From: Pseudobdellovibrionaceae bacterium | Lineage (GTDB): Bacteria; Bdellovibrionota; Bdellovibrionia; Bdellovibrionales; Bdellovibrionaceae | Direction: 5' to 3' | DNA: 64,000 nucleotides | Assembly: GCA_019637955.1 (NCBI GenBank) | Contig: JAHBUS010000006.1 | Span: forward strand, 98,750-162,749 | In this document: one piece after another, positions 29,604-38,720 of the stretch | Layout of the letters: every line of letters begins with the position of its first letter | Position numbering within the stretch: the first letter of the stretch is position 1 | Translations under genes and position numbers: made by a program | The notes under the pieces: model-generated | Seen by the model: the letters and a program-made list of their open reading frames with translations, nothing else | Database searches by the model: none | Told to the model about the DNA's origin: nothing

Positions 29604-30128
29604 ATGACGTTGATCTTGAAGCAAATTTTCGCGTTTTTCCGCATGCTCAACAGCGAGACGGGCTCCAACCAATTGGCTTGGGGACTGGCGCTGGGGCTCG
29701 TGCTCGGATTTTCGCCGTTCTTGTCACTGCAGACCTTTTTGGTTCTTCTGATTTGCATTTTCTTAAGGGTGCAAATGGGCGCCGCCTTTCTATCGGCGTT
29801 CTTCTTCAAGTTCGTCGCCTTCTTGCTGGATCCGCTCACGGATTTCTTGGGACGCAAAGTCTTGGAGAGCGAAGCGCTCCGTCCGGCTTTTGTTGAGCTC
29901 TACAACATGCCGATCGTACCGTTGACCCGCTTTAACAACTCGATCGTCATGGGGAGCGGCCTGTTGGGTTTCGTGCTCGCGATCCCGATGTTCTTTATTT
30001 TCAAACGTCTGATCCAGCAGTACCGCGTCACCGTGGTCGCCCGCTACAAAGGCACCAAAATCTGGAAGGCCTTCGCCGCGACCTCGTTCTACAAATGGTA
30101 CAACAAATATGAGGAGCTCTACGGATGA
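29604..30128 (+). CDS. TIGR03546 family membrane protein
   Basis: 174 residues with three to four hydrophobic segments (about 22-45, 50-72 and 112-135) and a basic, aromatic C-terminal tail. The N-terminal part (QLAWGLALGLVLGFSP) resembles the DUF2062/TIGR03546 group. It overlaps the next gene by 4 bases; the pair TIGR03546-TIGR03545 is a recurring two-gene unit of unknown function in bacteria with outer membranes. Good family match from memory, no function known. Confidence 0.75.
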   Translation: MTLILKQIFAFFRMLNSETGSNQLAWGLALGLVLGFSPFLSLQTFLVLLICIFLRVQMGAAFLSAFFFKFVAFLLDPLTDFLGRKVLESEALRPAFVELYNMPIVPLTRFNNSIVMGSGLLGFVLAIPMFFIFKRLIQQYRVTVVARYKGTKIWKAFAATSFYKWYNKYEELYG

Positions 30129-32098
30129 CAACAACTTCAGGCGCCCCCACTCCTCCCGTCAAAAAGCCCAAGAAAAAAGGCCCGATCCGGACGGAAGCGG
30201 CCGTTCCGCTTTTGATCGTGATTGTCCTCACCTGGGCGTATTTCCATTTTCTCTTCGACCGCCACTTGCGCAGCGGCCTTGAGTATCTCGGTTACCAGGT
30301 CATCGGCGCGCAGGTCGACATCGCGAACCTGGAGACCAGCTTTTGGAAGGGCAGCTTCCGCCTACAGGGTCTGCAAATCACCAACTCGCAAAAACCCGAC
30401 CGCAACATGGTCGCGATCGGCGACATCCGTTTCGACGTTTTGTGGGATGGTCTTTTGCGTGCGCGTTTCGTCGTGGATGAAATGGCCGTTGAGCAGATCC
30501 AGATCGACGTCCCCCGAAAATCTCCGGGCCGCGTGAAGCCGCCAGAGCCCATCAAGCCCGAAGAAAAGGGCCCCAGCGCGATGGAGAAGCTCAAAGACAA
30601 GGCCCTTCAGCAAACCGAGCAAACCTACAATCAAAACGTGTTGGGAGATTTGGCCGCCATTTTAGGCGGCGGCTCCAGCGCCGATCAGATGGCCAAGATC
30701 GAAGGCACCCTTCAGTCCAAAGAGCGCCTCAAGCAGCTCGAGGCCTCTTACGCCGAGAAGTCCAAGGTCTGGCAAGAAAAGATCAACGCCCTCCCCAAGC
30801 CCAAAGAGATCGATGCCCTGGGCGCAAAGATCAAAGCGATCAAAACCAGCAACTTCAAATCGCCGCAGGAGCTGGTCGAGTCTCTCAATCAGCTCAAAGC
30901 CGTCGCCGAAGAAGCGGACCAAAAGTACAAGCAATTGCAAGAAACCGGGAACACCCTCAATTCGGATTTGAATCAATTCAATCAAGGTCTCAAAGAACTT
31001 GATGCTTTGGTCAAAAAAGACATCGCCGAGCTCGAGACGCGTTTTAAAATTCCGAAGCTCGATGCCAAGAATCTGGCGCAATCGATCTTTCGTCCCTACA
31101 TCGAGCCCTACCTGAACCGCTTCACCGAGTACCGCGGGATGGCCGAGAAATACATGCCCCCGAATCTCATGAAAAAGGGCAAACCGGATGAGGCCGAAAT
31201 TCAAATTCAGCCGCGGCCCCGTGCCGATGGCGTCACTTACGAATTTGGAAAACCGCGCGCCTATCCGATTTTTTGGGTCAAAAAAATCAGCATCAGCTCC
31301 AAAGCCAGTCCCACGCTGGGAACCGGCGATTTGGCGGGGCTGGTGACCGACGTCACGTCCAACCAGATCTTGATCGGCAAGCCCACCACCGCGAGCCTGA
31401 AAGGTGACTTTCCGTCGATGTCGATTTCGGGTTTTGAATTTAAAGGGATTTTCGACAACCTCAAAGCGGACAGCAAAATTTCGTACGACATGAAAGTGGC
31501 GCAGTACCCGCTGGTCGGCCGACCCCTCATTCAATCGTCGGACGTGAGCATCGCGTTTGAAAAGGCCAATGCCTCGATCGAATCCAAAGGTCAGCTCGTG
31601 GCCCTGCGCGAATTCGAATTCACGCTCGGCAATTATATCAAGCAGGTCGACTACCAGATCCAGGCCAAGAACGAAGTCGTCGATGAGATCTTGAAAAACG
31701 TTTTCAAGTCGCTCCCCGTCCTCACGCTTGATGTGAAGGGTGAAGGGCGTCTCCCGGGCCTGGGCCTGGCGATCAACTCGAACTTGGGGCCTGAGCTTCA
31801 GCGCGGTTTCGAAAACGAAGTGAAGCGCAAAATCGACGAGGCGAAGCTCAAGATTCAAAATTACATCAACGAGCAGGTCGGAAAAGAAAAAGCCAAACTC
31901 GAAGCCGAATTCAACAAGGTCAAAGGCCAAGTGGACGGCGAAGTCAAAAAGCTGCAGGCGCAGCTCGATTCAAAAAAGCAGGAAGCCGAGGGCAAGATGA
32001 ACTCGGCCAAAAAAGACGAAGAGAACAAAGCTAAAAAAGGCGTCGAAAACGAGGCCAAAAAAGCCGCCGAAGAACTGAAAAAGAAGCTCGGCTTCTAA
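30125..32098 (+). CDS. TIGR03545 family protein, large single-pass envelope protein
   Basis: 657 residues. One transmembrane helix (~25-45, LLIVIVLTWAYFHFLF) anchors a large periplasmic part. Directly after it, a beta segment (FWKGSFRLQGLQI) resembles the start of AsmA/DUF748-type proteins that bridge or shape the outer membrane. Residues ~190-310 are coiled coil, and the last ~90 residues are a Lys/Glu/Ala-rich helix. It partners TIGR03546. A role in envelope lipid transport is possible, but not shown. A strong terminator follows. Confidence 0.75.
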   Translation: MTTTSGAPTPPVKKPKKKGPIRTEAAVPLLIVIVLTWAYFHFLFDRHLRSGLEYLGYQVIGAQVDIANLETSFWKGSFRLQGLQITNSQKPDRNMVAIGDIRFDVLWDGLLRARFVVDEMAVEQIQIDVPRKSPGRVKPPEPIKPEEKGPSAMEKLKDKALQQTEQTYNQNVLGDLAAILGGGSSADQMAKIEGTLQSKERLKQLEASYAEKSKVWQEKINALPKPKEIDALGAKIKAIKTSNFKSPQELVESLNQLKAVAEEADQKYKQLQETGNTLNSDLNQFNQGLKELDALVKKDIAELETRFKIPKLDAKNLAQSIFRPYIEPYLNRFTEYRGMAEKYMPPNLMKKGKPDEAEIQIQPRPRADGVTYEFGKPRAYPIFWVKKISISSKASPTLGTGDLAGLVTDVTSNQILIGKPTTASLKGDFPSMSISGFEFKGIFDNLKADSKISYDMKVAQYPLVGRPLIQSSDVSIAFEKANASIESKGQLVALREFEFTLGNYIKQVDYQIQAKNEVVDEILKNVFKSLPVLTLDVKGEGRLPGLGLAINSNLGPELQRGFENEVKRKIDEAKLKIQNYINEQVGKEKAKLEAEFNKVKGQVDGEVKKLQAQLDSKKQEAEGKMNSAKKDEENKAKKGVENEAKKAAEELKKKLGF

Positions 32099-32123
32099 TC
32101 TCGAGACGGATTCTGATCTCACA

Positions 32124-32155
32124 AACGCCCGGAAAATCCGGGCGTTTTCTTTTTT
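32124..32155 (+). terminator. Rho-independent terminator after the TIGR03546/03545 pair
   Basis: Stem AACGCCCGG (32124-32132) pairs with CCGGGCGTT (32138-32146), loop AAAAT, then TTCTTTTTT. It starts 26 bases after the stop codon. Confidence 0.9.
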
Positions 32156-32440
32156 GAAACACCCCACGAATTGATTTGAGACGAAATCGCACTTGCGCTT
32201 TCGCCCAGCCCTAGGTCGAGGTATTCTGACTCCACGTTCAAGGGGGTCTCGGTGAAAAGTAAAAGAGCAGGACACGCGAGAGTGCTTGCCGATCCCACGT
32301 ACCAGTAGGGAGCGGGACGACAAAGCGAGAAAGCTTCAACCACCGCGAAAGAGCCGAACCAAAAACCAAAGTAGACTTAACCCCGCTTCACGGCGGACAC
32401 GTAAAGGAGGCCTTGCGAATATCTAATGAGTGCTGATTCC

Positions 32441-32535
32441 TTCCTTTGCCAAAGGCAAACCTCGGGAAACCGGGGGACGCAAAGCTAAAGGGACTTCCCG
32501 GTGCAACACCGGATGTCAGCCAGATGCCAGAGGGA
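32441..32535 (+). promoter_or_regulatory. c-di-GMP-I (GEMM-I) riboswitch aptamer
   Basis: Hallmarks in order: AAAGGCAAACC (32451-32461), a GAAA tetraloop on a CGG/CCG stem (32465-32468), GGGACGCAAAGC (32473-32484), then the P2/P3 stem CCGGTGCAACACCGG (32498-32512), and GTCAGCCAGATGCC (32515-32528), which carries the tetraloop receptor side and ligand-binding C. The base aligned with G20 of the Vibrio Vc2 aptamer is G (32455 region), the c-di-GMP type, not the A of cGAMP-sensing variants. The terminal helix CCTTTGCC/GCCAGAGG is imperfect. Confidence 0.85.
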
Positions 32536-32657
32536 TAAGAGTTTAACTCTTCAGATCGCAAAGGCGTGAGCAAGCGCAATCGTTGCGGGGCTCATACGGA
32601 CTGGAAGGACAGTTATGAATTCGTTTTTTTCCGAAAAATACAGGTTTCATTCCCCTT

Positions 32658-32700
32658 AGCCGGTGATTTAAGAGGACCTTGAATCACCGGCTTTCTTTGT
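32658..32700 (+). terminator. Intrinsic terminator of the riboswitch RNA
   Basis: An 11-base-pair stem AGCCGGTGATT (32658-32668) with AATCACCGGCT (32682-32692), a 13-base loop and the tail TTCTTTGT. There is no T-run on the other strand, so it serves plus-strand transcription only. Confidence 0.88.
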
Positions 32701-32715
32701 CAGGGGAAGCCGGGC

Positions 32716-34734
32716 TTATTCGCCCGCTTCAGCGGCAGGAATCAAGAGACGAGCGCCGACCAGAACTTTCGAACCAGAGGCCATCTGGTTTTTCTTTTTC
32801 AAAGTATTCAAACTCACACCGTACTTCGCCGCGATCGCGGTGAGATTTTCGCCGCGGCGAACGACGTGCACTTTGTGCGGAGCGCGGCGGACGGCCACCT
32901 TTTTATTCGGCAGCTTCGTGGGAACGCGCGACTTCATCTTGGCCACGCTGGCGGGATCGCGTTTGAGCGTCACCTTGTAGTTGGTCGATGCGGGCATGCG
33001 CGAGCCGCTATCGAAGTTGGCGGGGTCGATGCCTTTATCTTGAATGTCCGAAGGGATCACCAAACGGGCACCGACTCTCAATGTCGAGCGGTTTGAAAGC
33101 TTATTCGCCTTGCGCAGGGCTTGAATGGTCACGCCGTATTTTTTTGCGATGGTGGTGAGGTTCTCTCCGGGGCGCACGACATGGTTGGGAGCGGCATTGC
33201 CTTCGGCAGAAGATGCGCTCGCAGCGGGAGCTTCAGCCGCGCTCTCAGAGCTGGCGACCTCAACGGGTCCCGACGTTTGGGCCGCCACGTTGGCCTTGTT
33301 CTCGTTGGGATCTTTGGGAAGGCCGTCATCCTTGGGAACGCGCAGGCGCATGCCCACCTTCAAAACGCCGCCCTTACCCAACTTGTTCATCTTGCGAAGT
33401 TCGTTGATCGAAGAGTCGTAATCGTCCGCGATCGCAGAGAGCGTGTCTCCGGGCTGAACGATGTAGTAAACCACGCCGTTCTTGGTGACTTCGGGATTGG
33501 TTGTCGCCTTTTCTTCATCGGTGGGCTGTTTGGGTTTCTCGATTGGCTTGGCGGCCGCGACTTTCACCGCCGCTTTGCGGGTCGAACGGTCAGGAACTTG
33601 GATGCGCTGGCCGATGCGCAGCTTGCGGCCCGGCTTGATGTCGTTGATATCGCGAAGATTCGCGACCGTCGTGCGGTACTTGCGTGCGACGGTGTAGAGG
33701 CTGTCACCCGCGCGGATTTTGTAGGTCGACGTGTCGCCGGCATCGGCGATCAGCTCAACGCGGTCCACGTAGGATTGAGCGGCCGCGCTCATCGCCACTT
33801 GGGTCTGACCCACGGGGATGCGCAGTTCAAGCACGCCGTTTGACTTGGCGGGAGCCACTTCGCCTTTGAATTTGGGATTGAGCTGTTTGAACTCTTCGTA
33901 CTCGACACCCATGCGGCTCGCCATCACGCGAAGGTTCACGGCTTTCGACACTTTCACCATGTCGAACTCGATCGGCTTTTCGTACTCGATATCGGTGAAG
34001 CCGTACTTCGCGGGGTTCTTACCGATCATTTTGGCGGCGATGAATTTGGGAACGTAATTGATCGTCTCTTTCGGGAAGCGTTTCTTGCGAGCCAGCTCCC
34101 AGAAATCGCGGGTGTAGTGGTTCATCACTTCGCGCTTCACGCGGTTTTCGCCGACGTTGTAAGACGCCATCGCCAAATACCAAGAACCGAACACGCTGTA
34201 GAGGCCCTTGAAGTATTCGGCGGCGGCTTGAGTCGCAAGAACGGGGTCACGGCGCTCGTCCACCAGGCCACTGATTTCCAGGCCGTAACGTTTTCCCGTT
34301 CCTTTGATGAATTGCCAGTAACCAACGGCCGCCGCGCGCGAGGTCGCGCGCGAACTAAAGCCCGACTCGATCAACGCGATGTAGATCAAATCCTCGGGCA
34401 GACCGTTTTGTTTTAAAATTCGTTTCATGAGCGAGCTGTAACGCGAGCTCCGTGCGAGGTAACGCTCCATGTGAGGACGGCCGCGGCCTTGGAAGTAATT
34501 GATCCATTGCTGCACGAGCGCGTTCATTTCGGTGGGCGTGGATTCGAGCTCTTGATCGACGACTTGCGGAGGCTCCGGGTCGCTCAAGCGGAAGGACTCA
34601 ACTTCGGCCACGGTGCCGGCGGGGATTTGTGCGTCGCTGACGGTGCGTTTATGTGCACAACTGGCAAGCAACACAAACGACAGCAAAAGCACAAAACGGC
34701 GGCCCATGGGGCTCATAGCTCCTGTACGGTTCAT
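32716..34734 (-). CDS. mltD: Membrane-bound lytic murein transglycosylase D-like lipoprotein with four LysM domains
   Basis: 672 residues. A lipoprotein signal ends in the lipobox VLLASC (Cys26). The SLT domain (~100-260) has ALIESGFSSRA with the catalytic Glu E123 and GYWQFIKGTGKRYGL. Four LysM repeats follow (about 340-390, 420-465, 515-560 and 620-668), each with a GD/GEx-L-x-IA core, plus a weak fifth-like stretch near 275-315. The enzyme cleaves glycan strands of peptidoglycan to anhydro-muropeptides at the outer membrane. E. coli MltD has two LysM; four is more. Starts are possible at Met1, 7 or 10. Confidence 0.92.
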   Translation of the reverse strand: MNRTGAMSPMGRRFVLLLSFVLLASCAHKRTVSDAQIPAGTVAEVESFRLSDPEPPQVVDQELESTPTEMNALVQQWINYFQGRGRPHMERYLARSSRYSSLMKRILKQNGLPEDLIYIALIESGFSSRATSRAAAVGYWQFIKGTGKRYGLEISGLVDERRDPVLATQAAAEYFKGLYSVFGSWYLAMASYNVGENRVKREVMNHYTRDFWELARKKRFPKETINYVPKFIAAKMIGKNPAKYGFTDIEYEKPIEFDMVKVSKAVNLRVMASRMGVEYEEFKQLNPKFKGEVAPAKSNGVLELRIPVGQTQVAMSAAAQSYVDRVELIADAGDTSTYKIRAGDSLYTVARKYRTTVANLRDINDIKPGRKLRIGQRIQVPDRSTRKAAVKVAAAKPIEKPKQPTDEEKATTNPEVTKNGVVYYIVQPGDTLSAIADDYDSSINELRKMNKLGKGGVLKVGMRLRVPKDDGLPKDPNENKANVAAQTSGPVEVASSESAAEAPAASASSAEGNAAPNHVVRPGENLTTIAKKYGVTIQALRKANKLSNRSTLRVGARLVIPSDIQDKGIDPANFDSGSRMPASTNYKVTLKRDPASVAKMKSRVPTKLPNKKVAVRRAPHKVHVVRRGENLTAIAAKYGVSLNTLKKKNQMASGSKVLVGARLLIPAAEAGE

Positions 34735-34791
34735 CCGATTTCCTCCCGTAAAAACCCAGTTTAGGCCAGGAAGGAGCAGGGGGCAAACAAT

Positions 34792-37068
34792 CTAGCGCGA
34801 CGTTGTCACAGATCCTGTATTTCCCTCTGTGGACTTGGGACTCAAGACGAGGTCGCTCCAGACGTTCATCTCCACCGCGACTCGACGTTGATCGAGGAGA
34901 CGGTACAGAAGCGTATTTCGCAGGATGGCTTTCACGTAGAAACTGGTTTCATACCAAGGGAGTTCCTCCATCCACAATTCATCCATCGGCGATTGCGGGG
35001 GCTTGGTCATCGACTCACGTAAATCCGCCCGCATTTTGACGAACTGACCCATTCTTCCGGGCCCCGCGTTGTAGGCGGCCAGTCCCAAGGGAACGGAACC
35101 TTGAAACTGACGGATCATCTGCGCGAGGTAGCTCGTGCCCATCGGAATGTTGCGGTCGATTTGAAACACGTCGTCCGGAATCTCGAGAGCGCCCAGCTTG
35201 AGCGTCTGCGCCACTTCGCGCGCGGTTGGCGGAATCAATTGCATCAGGCCCATGGCATTGGACGTGCTCACCGCCCGGGTGTTAAACGCGCTCTCTTGGC
35301 GGATCAACGACCAGACCAAAATCGGCTGCAAATTGTTCTTCTTGGCCTCGGCCTCGACCACGGGCTGGAAATCCTTGGGAAGCCCCAGCGACATCAAATC
35401 TTTGGTGCGAAAGTCGATCGATTGATCGCTGGCTTGATTCAAGAGCTTGATCACCAACGGATAAGCCTGCGCATCGTTCAAACTTTGCGCGAGCAAAGCC
35501 TTCATGCGCCCGTCCTCGGGCATCGGAAACTCGTTCGCCTCTTGCAGAGCTTCCCAGCGCCAACCGGCGGCGGTCAGCGTGCGCAAACGGTCCCACGCTT
35601 TTTTCTGAGGCGCGGTGAACTTAAAATTGGCCTTTAAAGTCTCGGCGGTCTCCAGCGGATAGGGCCACTCCAGTTGCCCTTGCAACGACTCCGCTTTGAG
35701 CTTCAAACCAAAATAAGAAAATGGAAATTTCGAAAGGATGACTTCGGCCTCTTTGGCCGCACGGACGGATTTGGAGTTTTGCAACGCACGCACGAGCCAG
35801 TAACGTGCCGAGAGCTCGTAACGGTCTTGGCCTTTGAGCGAAAGCAGGCGTTCAAAAATCGCGACCGCGCTCGGCGCTTGATTCTGGCGCAAATGCACGA
35901 GACCTAAGCGGAACAAAACTTCGCCGATCTCGTCGCCCGCCGAATGCTGTTCGGCGTACGCCTCGAAGTAGCGCTGCGCGCGTTTCTCTTCACCCATAAA
36001 TTGGGCGGAGCGGCCCGCGACGTAATTCAAAATGCCGCCCCAAGCGCTGGTCCCCGTTTTATCCAGGGCCTTATCGGCGAGACGCAAGCTTCCCGCAAAA
36101 TCGCCACGACGGTGAAGCCGGCGCGCCCAATCGCCCAATCGCGACCACTCGGCACGCTCGATCAAATTCAGGGCGCGGTCACGCAGCACGGTCCACTTTT
36201 CTTCGCCGTTCATCGCCTGTTCATAGAAGAGAAAATAAACGTCGAGCACTTTGTCGTGCGCCCATTTGGCCGAGCGCCCGTGCGGAAACTTGTTCAAGTA
36301 AGAAACGCAGTCTTCCACCAAAGCGAGAAGATCGTTGTTTTTTTGTGAGCTTTCAAATCGCTCTTCAAATTTTCGCTCGGCGTCCGAAACAAACTCCGAA
36401 ACCAGAGGCGCGGCCGGGGCCGCAGTCACCACGGCGCTCTCTTTTTTGGGTCCGACCGCCAGCAGGGCTTGAGCGTACTTGTCGCGAACCGCACGGTTTT
36501 CGCGCTGAGCGAGCGACTGCTCATAAAAAGTTTTGGCCGCTTCGGCATCTCGGAGCGAGTTGGCCCAATCGCCATAAAGCGCGAGGGCGCGGGCCTTGGA
36601 CTCTCGGTCCTCGCCGCCTTCCAGGAGCTCGAGCTGCTTGCCAATCTCCGCACCCGCCGCGGGCTTACCGCTCTCGCGCTCAAGCACTTGAAAACGCGTC
36701 CGGATCGCCTCTTGCCTCAGACTTTTGCTCCAAGCATCCCCCGAAGAGCGAAGCCCCGGAGCCGCATCAAAAGCGGCCAGCGCGGCTTTTGAAAGCGCGG
36801 TGCCGTTGGTTTTGGCTTCGGCTTTGCGCGCACAGCGAAGCCAGCTCATGAGCACCCAACCTTTGACGTTGGTGTTTTGCGCATAGGTCTGCGCGCCCAG
36901 GCGCGCGCACTCGGGCCACTTTTCAAGATCTTCGGCCGCGCGCAGCTGCGAGAGTTTCGACGTGGTTTTTTTGATCGGACTCGGAAGAGCGACCGTGGCG
37001 ACTTGCGCCGACGCGAACGAGCCGCCGAGAAGCGCGGCGGTAGCCAAAACGGATTTCATTTTCTTCAT
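34792..37068 (-). CDS. slt: Soluble lytic murein transglycosylase (Slt70 type)
   Basis: 758 residues from ATG 37068, which begins MKKMKSVLATAALLGGSFAS, a signal peptide; the frame runs on upstream to 37779 but that part is only the antisense of the next gene. The long helical superhelix (~30-560, TPR-like) is followed by the SLT domain with the catalytic Glu in IRQESAFN, then MGLMQLIPPTA and a NIPMGTSYL/LAAYNAGPGR C-terminus. It degrades peptidoglycan exolytically in the periplasm. It overlaps the upstream membrane protein gene by 4 bases, so they form an operon. Confidence 0.92.
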   Translation of the reverse strand: MKKMKSVLATAALLGGSFASAQVATVALPSPIKKTTSKLSQLRAAEDLEKWPECARLGAQTYAQNTNVKGWVLMSWLRCARKAEAKTNGTALSKAALAAFDAAPGLRSSGDAWSKSLRQEAIRTRFQVLERESGKPAAGAEIGKQLELLEGGEDRESKARALALYGDWANSLRDAEAAKTFYEQSLAQRENRAVRDKYAQALLAVGPKKESAVVTAAPAAPLVSEFVSDAERKFEERFESSQKNNDLLALVEDCVSYLNKFPHGRSAKWAHDKVLDVYFLFYEQAMNGEEKWTVLRDRALNLIERAEWSRLGDWARRLHRRGDFAGSLRLADKALDKTGTSAWGGILNYVAGRSAQFMGEEKRAQRYFEAYAEQHSAGDEIGEVLFRLGLVHLRQNQAPSAVAIFERLLSLKGQDRYELSARYWLVRALQNSKSVRAAKEAEVILSKFPFSYFGLKLKAESLQGQLEWPYPLETAETLKANFKFTAPQKKAWDRLRTLTAAGWRWEALQEANEFPMPEDGRMKALLAQSLNDAQAYPLVIKLLNQASDQSIDFRTKDLMSLGLPKDFQPVVEAEAKKNNLQPILVWSLIRQESAFNTRAVSTSNAMGLMQLIPPTAREVAQTLKLGALEIPDDVFQIDRNIPMGTSYLAQMIRQFQGSVPLGLAAYNAGPGRMGQFVKMRADLRESMTKPPQSPMDELWMEELPWYETSFYVKAILRNTLLYRLLDQRRVAVEMNVWSDLVLSPKSTEGNTGSVTTSR

Positions 37069-38720
37069 GGCGAGACTCTCCACAAATGCCAAGACCCGAG
37101 GGATCTTTCTTCGGACCAACCCAACTTGCGCCACTCTTCGAGCGGCGGCGAATCGCTTAAAGACGTATTGTCCTTCCAAACGATCCATTTGACACCCAAT
37201 TCCCGGGCCGAGGCTTGGGCATCTGGACGAGCCGACAGGATCGAGCTGAGTTTCGCGGTTTGACTTTCGACAGGCTGACCGTGCGACCACGCATGTCCGG
37301 GGTAACCCATGACGAGACTTTGGCCAAGGCCCAGCAGCGGGTGTTGATGATCGACGCTCGCGGCGACGATCTCCTCGGGACGGCGACCTTCGAAAAGTTT
37401 TTGCAAAATCAAGCGGTCGGTGACGGGCTGAATGTCGAAACGTCCCGTGAAAGACGGCATCCCGCTCAGCCACTGAAGCAGTCCCGGCCAGAACAGGATC
37501 AGCGACAAAATCAACGCCGGCGCGCCCTTCCAACGGAAGGTGCGATGACTCCAGAACGTCCACAACAGATAAACCCAGAGCAGCACCTTGATTTGATCCC
37601 AAGCCCATGGCGCCAAACGCACGCTCAGCGCAAAGGCCGTGATCACCCAGGCCGCCGTCAGATCGCGCCAATTTTTTTGTTGAATCCAAACCCAGCTCAC
37701 CCAGAACGGCAGCAGAATCCAAGCGGTGAAGTTGAGCAGCCAAGCCTGGGGCGTTTTCAGGGTCCAGAAAAATTCCCAACCCAAAGCGGATTCAACTTTC
37801 CCGAAGCTCACCGAGCGCAAAACAAAGAACAGCGCCAAGCTCGCTCCTGCCACCAACGGCCATTGAAAACGGCGCCGGAAACAGAAGGTCACCAACATCC
37901 ACAAGCTTAAGATCGCGAACGTGTGCAAATGAAAAAATGGAAGCACGCCCCAGATCCACGCAAAAGTGAGGGAGATTTTAAAATCGTCTTCGGTCAGATA
38001 GCGATGCCATTTGCGAATCAAGTAAAGTCCCGCCGGGAGCGCGAACATCATCCCCCGCTGCGTGAGAAACACGGCGAAGAACAGGTTCTTCCACGCCAGC
38101 GTCGAGCTCGGCCCCAGGCTCTGCTGCCAATCGAAGGCCAGAACGACACCGCCGCTAAAGAAGAACGCGCAGACCAGCAGCACGCCGCCCAGACGCCAGA
38201 GCGCCATCCAGAGCGTCAACAGGCAAAGAGCGCCGGTGATAAAGAACGCCGCCGTGAGCGAAAGCCCCGCGCGCACCAGCACGGCCTCCCAAAGATCCAT
38301 CGCGTAGGCGTAGTGCAATCGCGGCCCCGCGAAGGTGGGATCCATGGGCGGAAAGGCGGCTCCCCGTCTGAAAAATTCAACCAGCTGCAAATGAAACGGC
38401 AGATCCCCCAAGTTGTTCGGATTGGCGGTGCCGATCGTTCCGTTTGCGACCGAGAACAAGTTTAAAAGGCAGTAAAGACCGCCCGTCAGCACCACCAAAA
38501 AAATCATTTGGCTCGGCAGATCCGCACGGCGCCAGAAACGCGCGAACCAACCGCGCCATGCGCGCACCGACACGCCGCCCGAAACGAGCGCCCCGCCCAA
38601 AAGAGAAATCCAGGTTACCCAGCCGTTCAGACCTTCACCCGACATCCACGTGTGAAAACTTGAAAGCACCGCCGCGAGAACGACGGTCACCGACACCATC
38701 ATGAGCCAAGCGCGAGTCAT
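37065..38720 (-). CDS. Multi-pass membrane protein, GT-C-like
   Basis: 551 residues from ATG 38720, which overlaps the preceding stop as ATGA; longer starts are possible but would add a non-hydrophobic leader. About twelve hydrophobic helices. The first large loop contains GDLPFHLQLVEFF and AGPRLHYAYAMDLWE, the acidic/aromatic pattern of GT-C glycosyltransferases and related proteins. The last ~120 residues are soluble. Coupled with an Agl23-like gene upstream and slt downstream. No specific family is recognised with certainty. Confidence 0.65.
   Translation of the reverse strand: MTRAWLMMVSVTVVLAAVLSSFHTWMSGEGLNGWVTWISLLGGALVSGGVSVRAWRGWFARFWRRADLPSQMIFLVVLTGGLYCLLNLFSVANGTIGTANPNNLGDLPFHLQLVEFFRRGAAFPPMDPTFAGPRLHYAYAMDLWEAVLVRAGLSLTAAFFITGALCLLTLWMALWRLGGVLLVCAFFFSGGVVLAFDWQQSLGPSSTLAWKNLFFAVFLTQRGMMFALPAGLYLIRKWHRYLTEDDFKISLTFAWIWGVLPFFHLHTFAILSLWMLVTFCFRRRFQWPLVAGASLALFFVLRSVSFGKVESALGWEFFWTLKTPQAWLLNFTAWILLPFWVSWVWIQQKNWRDLTAAWVITAFALSVRLAPWAWDQIKVLLWVYLLWTFWSHRTFRWKGAPALILSLILFWPGLLQWLSGMPSFTGRFDIQPVTDRLILQKLFEGRRPEEIVAASVDHQHPLLGLGQSLVMGYPGHAWSHGQPVESQTAKLSSILSARPDAQASARELGVKWIVWKDNTSLSDSPPLEEWRKLGWSEERSLGSWHLWRVSP

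Follow-up and report, generated by a model that had tools for sequence, protein, structure and literature searches.

In the window, by which the whole analysed stretch of 64,000 nucleotides is meant, a c-di-GMP-I (GEMM-I) aptamer lies in a gap. On its left a plus-strand gene ends at 32098 and is followed by a terminator of its own (32123–32147); on its right is a convergent gene on the minus strand (32716–34734). The upstream gene (30125–32098) encodes 657 amino acids without a Pfam match and differs from the mrp gene that many relatives carry near the RNA. The minus strand from 32716 to 37779 carries two consecutive lytic-transglycosylase-type genes, the LysM/SLT gene and a longer second one; about 20 loci have a relative of the latter close to the RNA. 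Since the next gene is convergent, a same-strand gene behind the RNA is absent, as the preliminary description had stated. Thus, the regulated downstream gene of a cis-acting riboswitch was not found at the locus, and the arrangement, with an own terminator and without a same-strand gene, is the standalone one of merRNA. The features are as follows (positions in the window):

32222–32227, plus strand: TATTCT, a −10-like box that is conserved among the aligned family members as TAttCT; the −35 region is weak here
32234–32699, plus strand: predicted merRNA transcript of about 465 nt, from the alignment with HD100 merRNA (start 32234–32244) and the end of the 3′-domain match at 32699
32240–32246, plus strand: Shine-Dalgarno sequence AAGGGGG of the leader ORF, whose AAGGGG complements CCCCUU in E7
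32252–32308, plus strand: leader ORF from GTG (32252) to TAG (32308), encoding VKSKRAGHARVLADPTYQ and stop (18 aa)
32403–32410, plus strand: E2, AAAGGAGG, nearly invariant, not followed by an ORF; can pair with E3
32437–32448, plus strand: E3, UUCCUUCCUUUG, 5′ strand shared by P1 and the alternative helix
32444–32531, plus strand: c-di-GMP-I (GEMM-I) aptamer (Rfam match) with G at the position of Vc2 G20
32528–32533, plus strand: E4, CAGAGG, 3′ strand of P1, paired to CCUUUG at 32443–32448
32601–32612, plus strand: E6, CUGGAAGGACAG, of which GGAAGGA (32603–32609) pairs with UCCUUCC of E3
32643–32658, plus strand: E7, GGUUUCAUUCCCCUUA, near-invariant 16-nt core, complementary to the Shine-Dalgarno sequence and start codon of the leader ORF and partly to E6
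32658–32692, plus strand: terminator hairpin (hairpin search and 3′-domain model), followed by UUUCUUUG
32716–34734, minus strand: convergent neighbour, lytic transglycosylase (SLT and four LysM), which in many relatives is a syntenic marker on the downstream side of the RNA

The aptamer announced in the preliminary description was recovered by covariance-model search as a full-length RF01051 match at 32444–32531 (plus strand) with 69.1 bits (gathering threshold 35 bits; E = 1.9e-11 for the 64-kb window), and the genome of 3.77 Mb has no other. At the position of Vc2 G20 the window indeed has G, and not the A of cGAMP-sensing GEMM-I RNAs; cGAMP binding has been obtained by a G20A change (PMC6274999). 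G occupies this position in all readable copies but one, the exception being one f17 copy. The RNA at the locus should therefore bind c-di-GMP, which could be supplied by the five GGDEF domains encoded in the genome. A search of the genome for c-di-GMP-II gave no match, as likewise did its positive control, and weak Rfam matches to Moco-II, mir-1954, AgvB and sR035, all far below threshold, were taken as chance.

The terminator expected after the aptamer was found as a hairpin of 15 pairs with a 5-nt loop (32658–32692), followed by an imperfect U tract, TTTCTTTG. Compared with shuffles, the RNA of the 561-nt gap has a somewhat better fold (z = −2.26). Position 32156, with which the interval of the preliminary description begins, lies upstream of the probable promoter, and the RNA probably extends from about 32234–32244 to about 32699. 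It should be noted that a consensus sigma-70 promoter was not found at the gap.

Orthology with merRNA and distribution in Bdellovibrionota

The merRNA of Bdellovibrio bacteriovorus HD100 is a 445-nt RNA encoded at 1,073,741–1,074,185 on the minus strand, which is about 5000-fold higher in attack phase than in growth phase and then reaches 2.0 million RPKM (PMC3627812). One of our genomes (G073) has its single RF01051 match at 1,073,868–1,073,951 (minus strand), inside the published merRNA interval, and from these coordinates was taken as HD100 or a near-identical strain. From the post-aptamer region of 19 relatives a 3′-domain covariance model was built, the window sequence and the aptamer being excluded. 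This model matches the window at 32524–32699 (E = 9.8e-9), finds the same locus as its single match in the whole genome (E = 5.7e-7) and in HD100 matches inside the published merRNA (E = 1.4e-25); nothing was matched in nine genomes of other families. Because a model free of the aptamer matches the window locus alone in its genome and also the HD100 merRNA, the RNA in the window is almost certainly the merRNA ortholog of this species, and the merRNA-like layout first proposed for it is thus borne out by 3′ domain, aptamer, G20 and standalone position together.

In the aligned gaps of 48 family members conservation reaches far beyond the aptamer. The conserved blocks are TATTCT, AAAGGAGG (E2), UCCUUCCUUUG (E3), CAAAGG (E4), UGGAAGGA (E6) and GGUUUCAUUCCCCUUA (E7), the last of which precedes the terminator and is identical in the window and in HD100. 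The two RNAs thus share a standalone c-di-GMP-I aptamer, a 5′ part of about 230 nt, a terminator without a downstream gene and a similar 3′ tail with an identical 16-nt core; they differ in that the window copy sits in another genus and in the peptide of the leader ORF, which is MRTHEHHDDELK in HD100 and VKSKRAGHARVLADPTYQ in the window. From other riboswitches of RF01051, with which the RNA has aptamer sequence, fold and G20 in common, it differs in lacking a regulated same-strand gene and in the target of the downstream alternative pairing, which is a leader ORF at the 5′ side instead of a gene's expression platform. Rli55 of Listeria, a noncoding RNA containing a B12 riboswitch, is likewise a standalone RNA rather than an mRNA, but acts by sequestration of EutV via ANTAR elements and by ligand-induced early end of transcription, neither of which is seen here (PMC8079631).

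The c-di-GMP-I aptamer was found in 116 of 291 Bdellovibrionota genomes, always in exactly one copy, with the many-genome searches using stricter filters and several of the match-free genomes being incomplete or fragmented. Within the family, 59 of 66 genomes and all 20 genera have the aptamer RNA. A scan of an 85,000-species collection for GGAAGG-N15-45-GGTTTCATTCCCCTTA gave 19 matches, the window's own genome not being among them; 17 fell into Bdellovibrio, Pseudobdellovibrio, Bdellovibrionaceae or Bdellovibrionales, and the other two are contigs of one bin labelled “Proteobacteria.” Across the family and related families a gene for an mrp-type ATPase lies near the RNA in 45 loci and a LysM/SLT gene in 49 (that of the window among them), and these recurring neighbours indicate that the RNA keeps its place across families.

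In a second lineage (families f16, f20, f22 and others) a single-copy RNA is located upstream of a same-strand radical-SAM gene resembling queE. In the loci inspected, hairpins with U tracts lie between the aptamer and the queE-like gene, and therefore the RNA of the second lineage appears to be standalone, too. Second-lineage loci L101, L103, L104, L106–L107, L109, L111, L114, L131 and others have their own 5′ element, P1 competitor and terminator. In 2013, conservation outside the Bdellovibrio lineage was not found (PMC3627812). The distribution across these genomes shows the aptamer RNA to be an ancient feature of Bdellovibrionota rather than one peculiar to Bdellovibrio.

The leader ORF and the alternative helices

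The 5′ part of the RNA, which had been described as a 200-base segment of unknown role, is not featureless noncoding sequence: it holds a conserved leader ORF. A Shine-Dalgarno sequence together with an ORF ending in D..[PYL][KEQ]-stop was found in 50 of the 78 leaders of the class (summed over f1, f2, f7, f9 and f10, the 4 of f5 being left out), with 0.07 expected in dinucleotide shuffles, and in none of 1765 random segments; the pattern was defined after the ORFs had been seen, and the controls were scored by the same rule. When 45 distinct peptide tails were aligned at the stop codon, 42 had D at position −5, 39 had P at −2 and 43 had K or E at −1; these are related sequences, with ORFs selected in part because of a proline close to the end. 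The proline at −2 is encoded by CCA (19), CCG (16), CCC (3) or CCT (1), and all three stop codons occur among the 45 tails. Such synonymous variation, with the residues themselves fixed, is a sign of translation more than of RNA structure. At the level of sequence, a Shine-Dalgarno sequence, a start codon and a conserved peptide with synonymous codon variation were thus all found, as expected of a translated leader ORF.

Two related genera have the nearest matches of the window peptide, VKRRQAGSRCHLADPGYE and VKRRRAGRCHHLADPGYE; a frame starting at ACG, first read by eye, was dropped, the ORF from GTG at 32252 being the one that matched these genera. In other Bdellovibrio the peptide is MKNRIHDHHDEPPK, and in the qaytius group MKRIHDHNDKAPK. 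It ends in ...LDPPPE or ...DPPPK in families f2, f7 and f9 and in DPTYQ, without poly-proline, in the window. The leaders of genus g5 (L047, L054, L059, L063, L076, L077) have a different conserved frame, ...DYQQSYQ(N/Y)DTNY-stop, and this frame, with the end YQ(N/Y)DT(N/T)Y-stop, is without a clear standard start codon; in a few genera no leader ORF of any such type was found. Poly-proline pausing and its effect on coupling have been described for EF-P (PMC5021804). The leader peptides treated there and those of many relatives of the window RNA are alike in that a short ORF with a Shine-Dalgarno sequence has a proline-rich end at the stop codon; they differ in that the ORF lies here inside a standalone RNA without a structural gene downstream.

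The strand E3 can form two mutually exclusive helices. With E4 it forms P1, which is paired in 99.6% of cells (E3:E4). With E6 it forms a competitor of P1 that is more stable than shuffles in 59 of 59 copies (mean −11.5 vs −7.5 kcal/mol), 95.4% of cells being paired in 40 distinct copies and 39–66% when one strand is slid by 1–2 columns. One pair of the E3:E6 helix is C-G in 32 copies, A-U in 7 and U-A in 1, the A-U cells being all in genus g2 and therefore standing for few independent events. Cells changed on both sides number 9 vs 2.1 in shuffles, the compensatory changes being mostly from one genus (7 of 8 at one pair). A third possible partner is E2, for which a pairing of AAAGGAGG with the 5′ strand of P1 had been suggested in the preliminary description: the potential for this pairing is kept in 95.6% of cells in 40 distinct family copies, but covariation goes no further than in the control. 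AAAGGAGG (32403–32410 and relatives) is also a perfect Shine-Dalgarno sequence without a convincing ORF behind it in the copies examined. Its role may be pairing with E3, contact with the ribosome, or both. Direct pairing of E2 with E7 in the family was judged weak by eye.

The 3′ core E7 faces the start of the leader ORF: in the window, CCCCUU is opposite the Shine-Dalgarno sequence AAGGGG and UUUCAU opposite GUGAAA. Over 41 copies this pairing has a mean of −11.8 kcal/mol, compared with −9.4 kcal/mol for shuffled start regions and −8.2 kcal/mol for 149 other gene starts (p = 1.3e-11 vs the leader start). Covariation cannot be shown by this pairing because E7 is nearly invariant. In genera g5 and g6 E7 is kept without a leader ORF of this type with a standard start, so that there it must serve in some other pairing or role. 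In this family the helix of E6 with E7 is a short one of 5–6 pairs. In the second lineage CCCCCUUUG(AAA) faces (UUU)CAAAGGGGG, UGAAGAGG faces CCUCUUCA, and GGGGGUCC faces GGACCUCC, the first two of these facings also appearing in the predicted folds of two examples; it is thus the same chain of exclusive helices (5′ element:E7, E7:E6, E6:E3, E3:E4) written in other letters. When the window RNA is folded in silico, the P1 state comes out 3.5 kcal/mol more stable than the E3:E6 state and 4.3 kcal/mol more stable than the E2:E3 state, both differences being within model error. As modelled, these states would be close enough to each other for the ligand to matter. The conserved alternative pairings suggest a conformational switch rather than a store of c-di-GMP alone.

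Possible functions of the RNA

We tentatively propose, with somewhat less than an even chance of being right, that merRNA is a free-standing, single-copy RNA with its own promoter and terminator in which a c-di-GMP-I aptamer is combined with a translated leader ORF of 18 codons, the state of the aptamer being relayed via the helices to the leader start. E3 would have a choice of two partners: E4, by which P1 is closed as needed for binding of the ligand, or E6 downstream. Without c-di-GMP the E3:E6 helix could form and E7 would be free to cover the Shine-Dalgarno sequence and start codon of the leader. With c-di-GMP P1 would form, and the released E6 would take up part of E7 and thereby free the leader start. 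Ribosomes on the leader would then hold the RNA in a stabilised state with E7 released, and in the many relatives whose peptide ends in D-P-P-P-E/K-stop they would be expected to be slowed there. Thus c-di-GMP and the supply of ribosomes might together determine which conformation is taken by an RNA whose abundance in attack-phase HD100 is extreme.

The discoverers proposed that merRNA stores or buffers c-di-GMP in attack phase, in which case the aptamer would be the sole working part and the rest of the RNA a scaffold or stabiliser. For such a pure sink speak the extreme attack-phase abundance in HD100, the missing downstream gene (PMC3627812) and the strong conservation of the aptamer. It should be considered, however, that the abundance is established for one species only, and that the leader ORF, conserved with synonymous codon changes, the near-invariant 3′ core of 16 nt and the conserved competitor of P1 would all be superfluous in a sink; we regard it as a serious, if unlikely, explanation. 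Rather unlikely in our estimate is an RNA acting in trans, in which E7, by UUUCAU and UCCCCUU, would block translation of other mRNAs whose starts read AAGGGG-spacer-AUGAAA, exported proteins being frequent among their products, with c-di-GMP and the leader as decoy gating its exposure. E7 is complementary to a Shine-Dalgarno sequence plus AUGAAA and is kept even where a standard leader ORF is missing, and each of six genomes has 9–16 AAGGGG-N3-8-AUGAAA start sites, above the reversed control, many of which open proteins beginning with MK and a signal-peptide-like sequence. Such sites are, however, expected at ordinary starts of exported proteins, few target genes recur across genomes (70 ORFs in six genomes), and a long complementary target conserved across 12 genomes is absent: a search of these for TAAGGGGAATGAAACC with at most two mismatches gave the RNA itself and scattered sites without a recurring place. 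A family of secreted proteins (...LGQPAYGGTGCPAGSASV...; L256, L266, L287) has an AAGGGG-AUGAAA start matching the merRNA core in three of the six genomes.

The RNA could also titrate CsrA by its GGA motifs, with a GGA-loop hairpin gated by the aptamer. CsrA is encoded in 65 of the 66 family genomes, and the three copies inspected contain 11–14 GGA each; in some copies there is ACAAGGAUU, which we take to resemble the CsrA consensus. Such a sponge is nevertheless improbable: GGA is weakly enriched over dinucleotide shuffles, with a mean z of 0.74 in f1 and negative values in f16 and f20, so that an excess of GGA beyond composition, as a CsrA-sequestering RNA would have, was not found in these families. 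We give hardly any credence to the RNA being a cis riboswitch or a 3′ UTR or antisense element of a neighbouring gene. The queE-like radical-SAM gene on the same strand in the second lineage would fit a cis element, but terminator-like hairpins with U tracts separate it from the aptamer in the loci inspected; in the window the next gene is convergent and beyond the terminator, and the neighbours vary while the RNA persists.

Few RNAs of attack-phase Bdellovibrio are as abundant as merRNA, whose role has been a matter of conjecture since 2013. Neither the merRNA passages of PMC3627812 nor the other open-access papers found describe the leader ORF, the anti-start-site core, the competitor of P1 or the retention throughout the phylum. 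If true, the union of a riboswitch aptamer with a translated ORF in a single standalone RNA would be an unusual architecture. A wider and quite speculative reading, to which we attach a small probability, is that through much of the phylum merRNA is a regulator with two inputs, c-di-GMP and ribosomes pausing on the leader, which decide whether E7 is locked on its own start site or released against other mRNAs, chiefly those of exported proteins, in attack phase. The comparison of genomes yields parts that can be tested (an encoded peptide, a core facing a start site, a competitor of P1 and natural variants numbering about 120), and with them a “possible c-di-GMP sponge” becomes a specific candidate switch that point mutations can decide upon.
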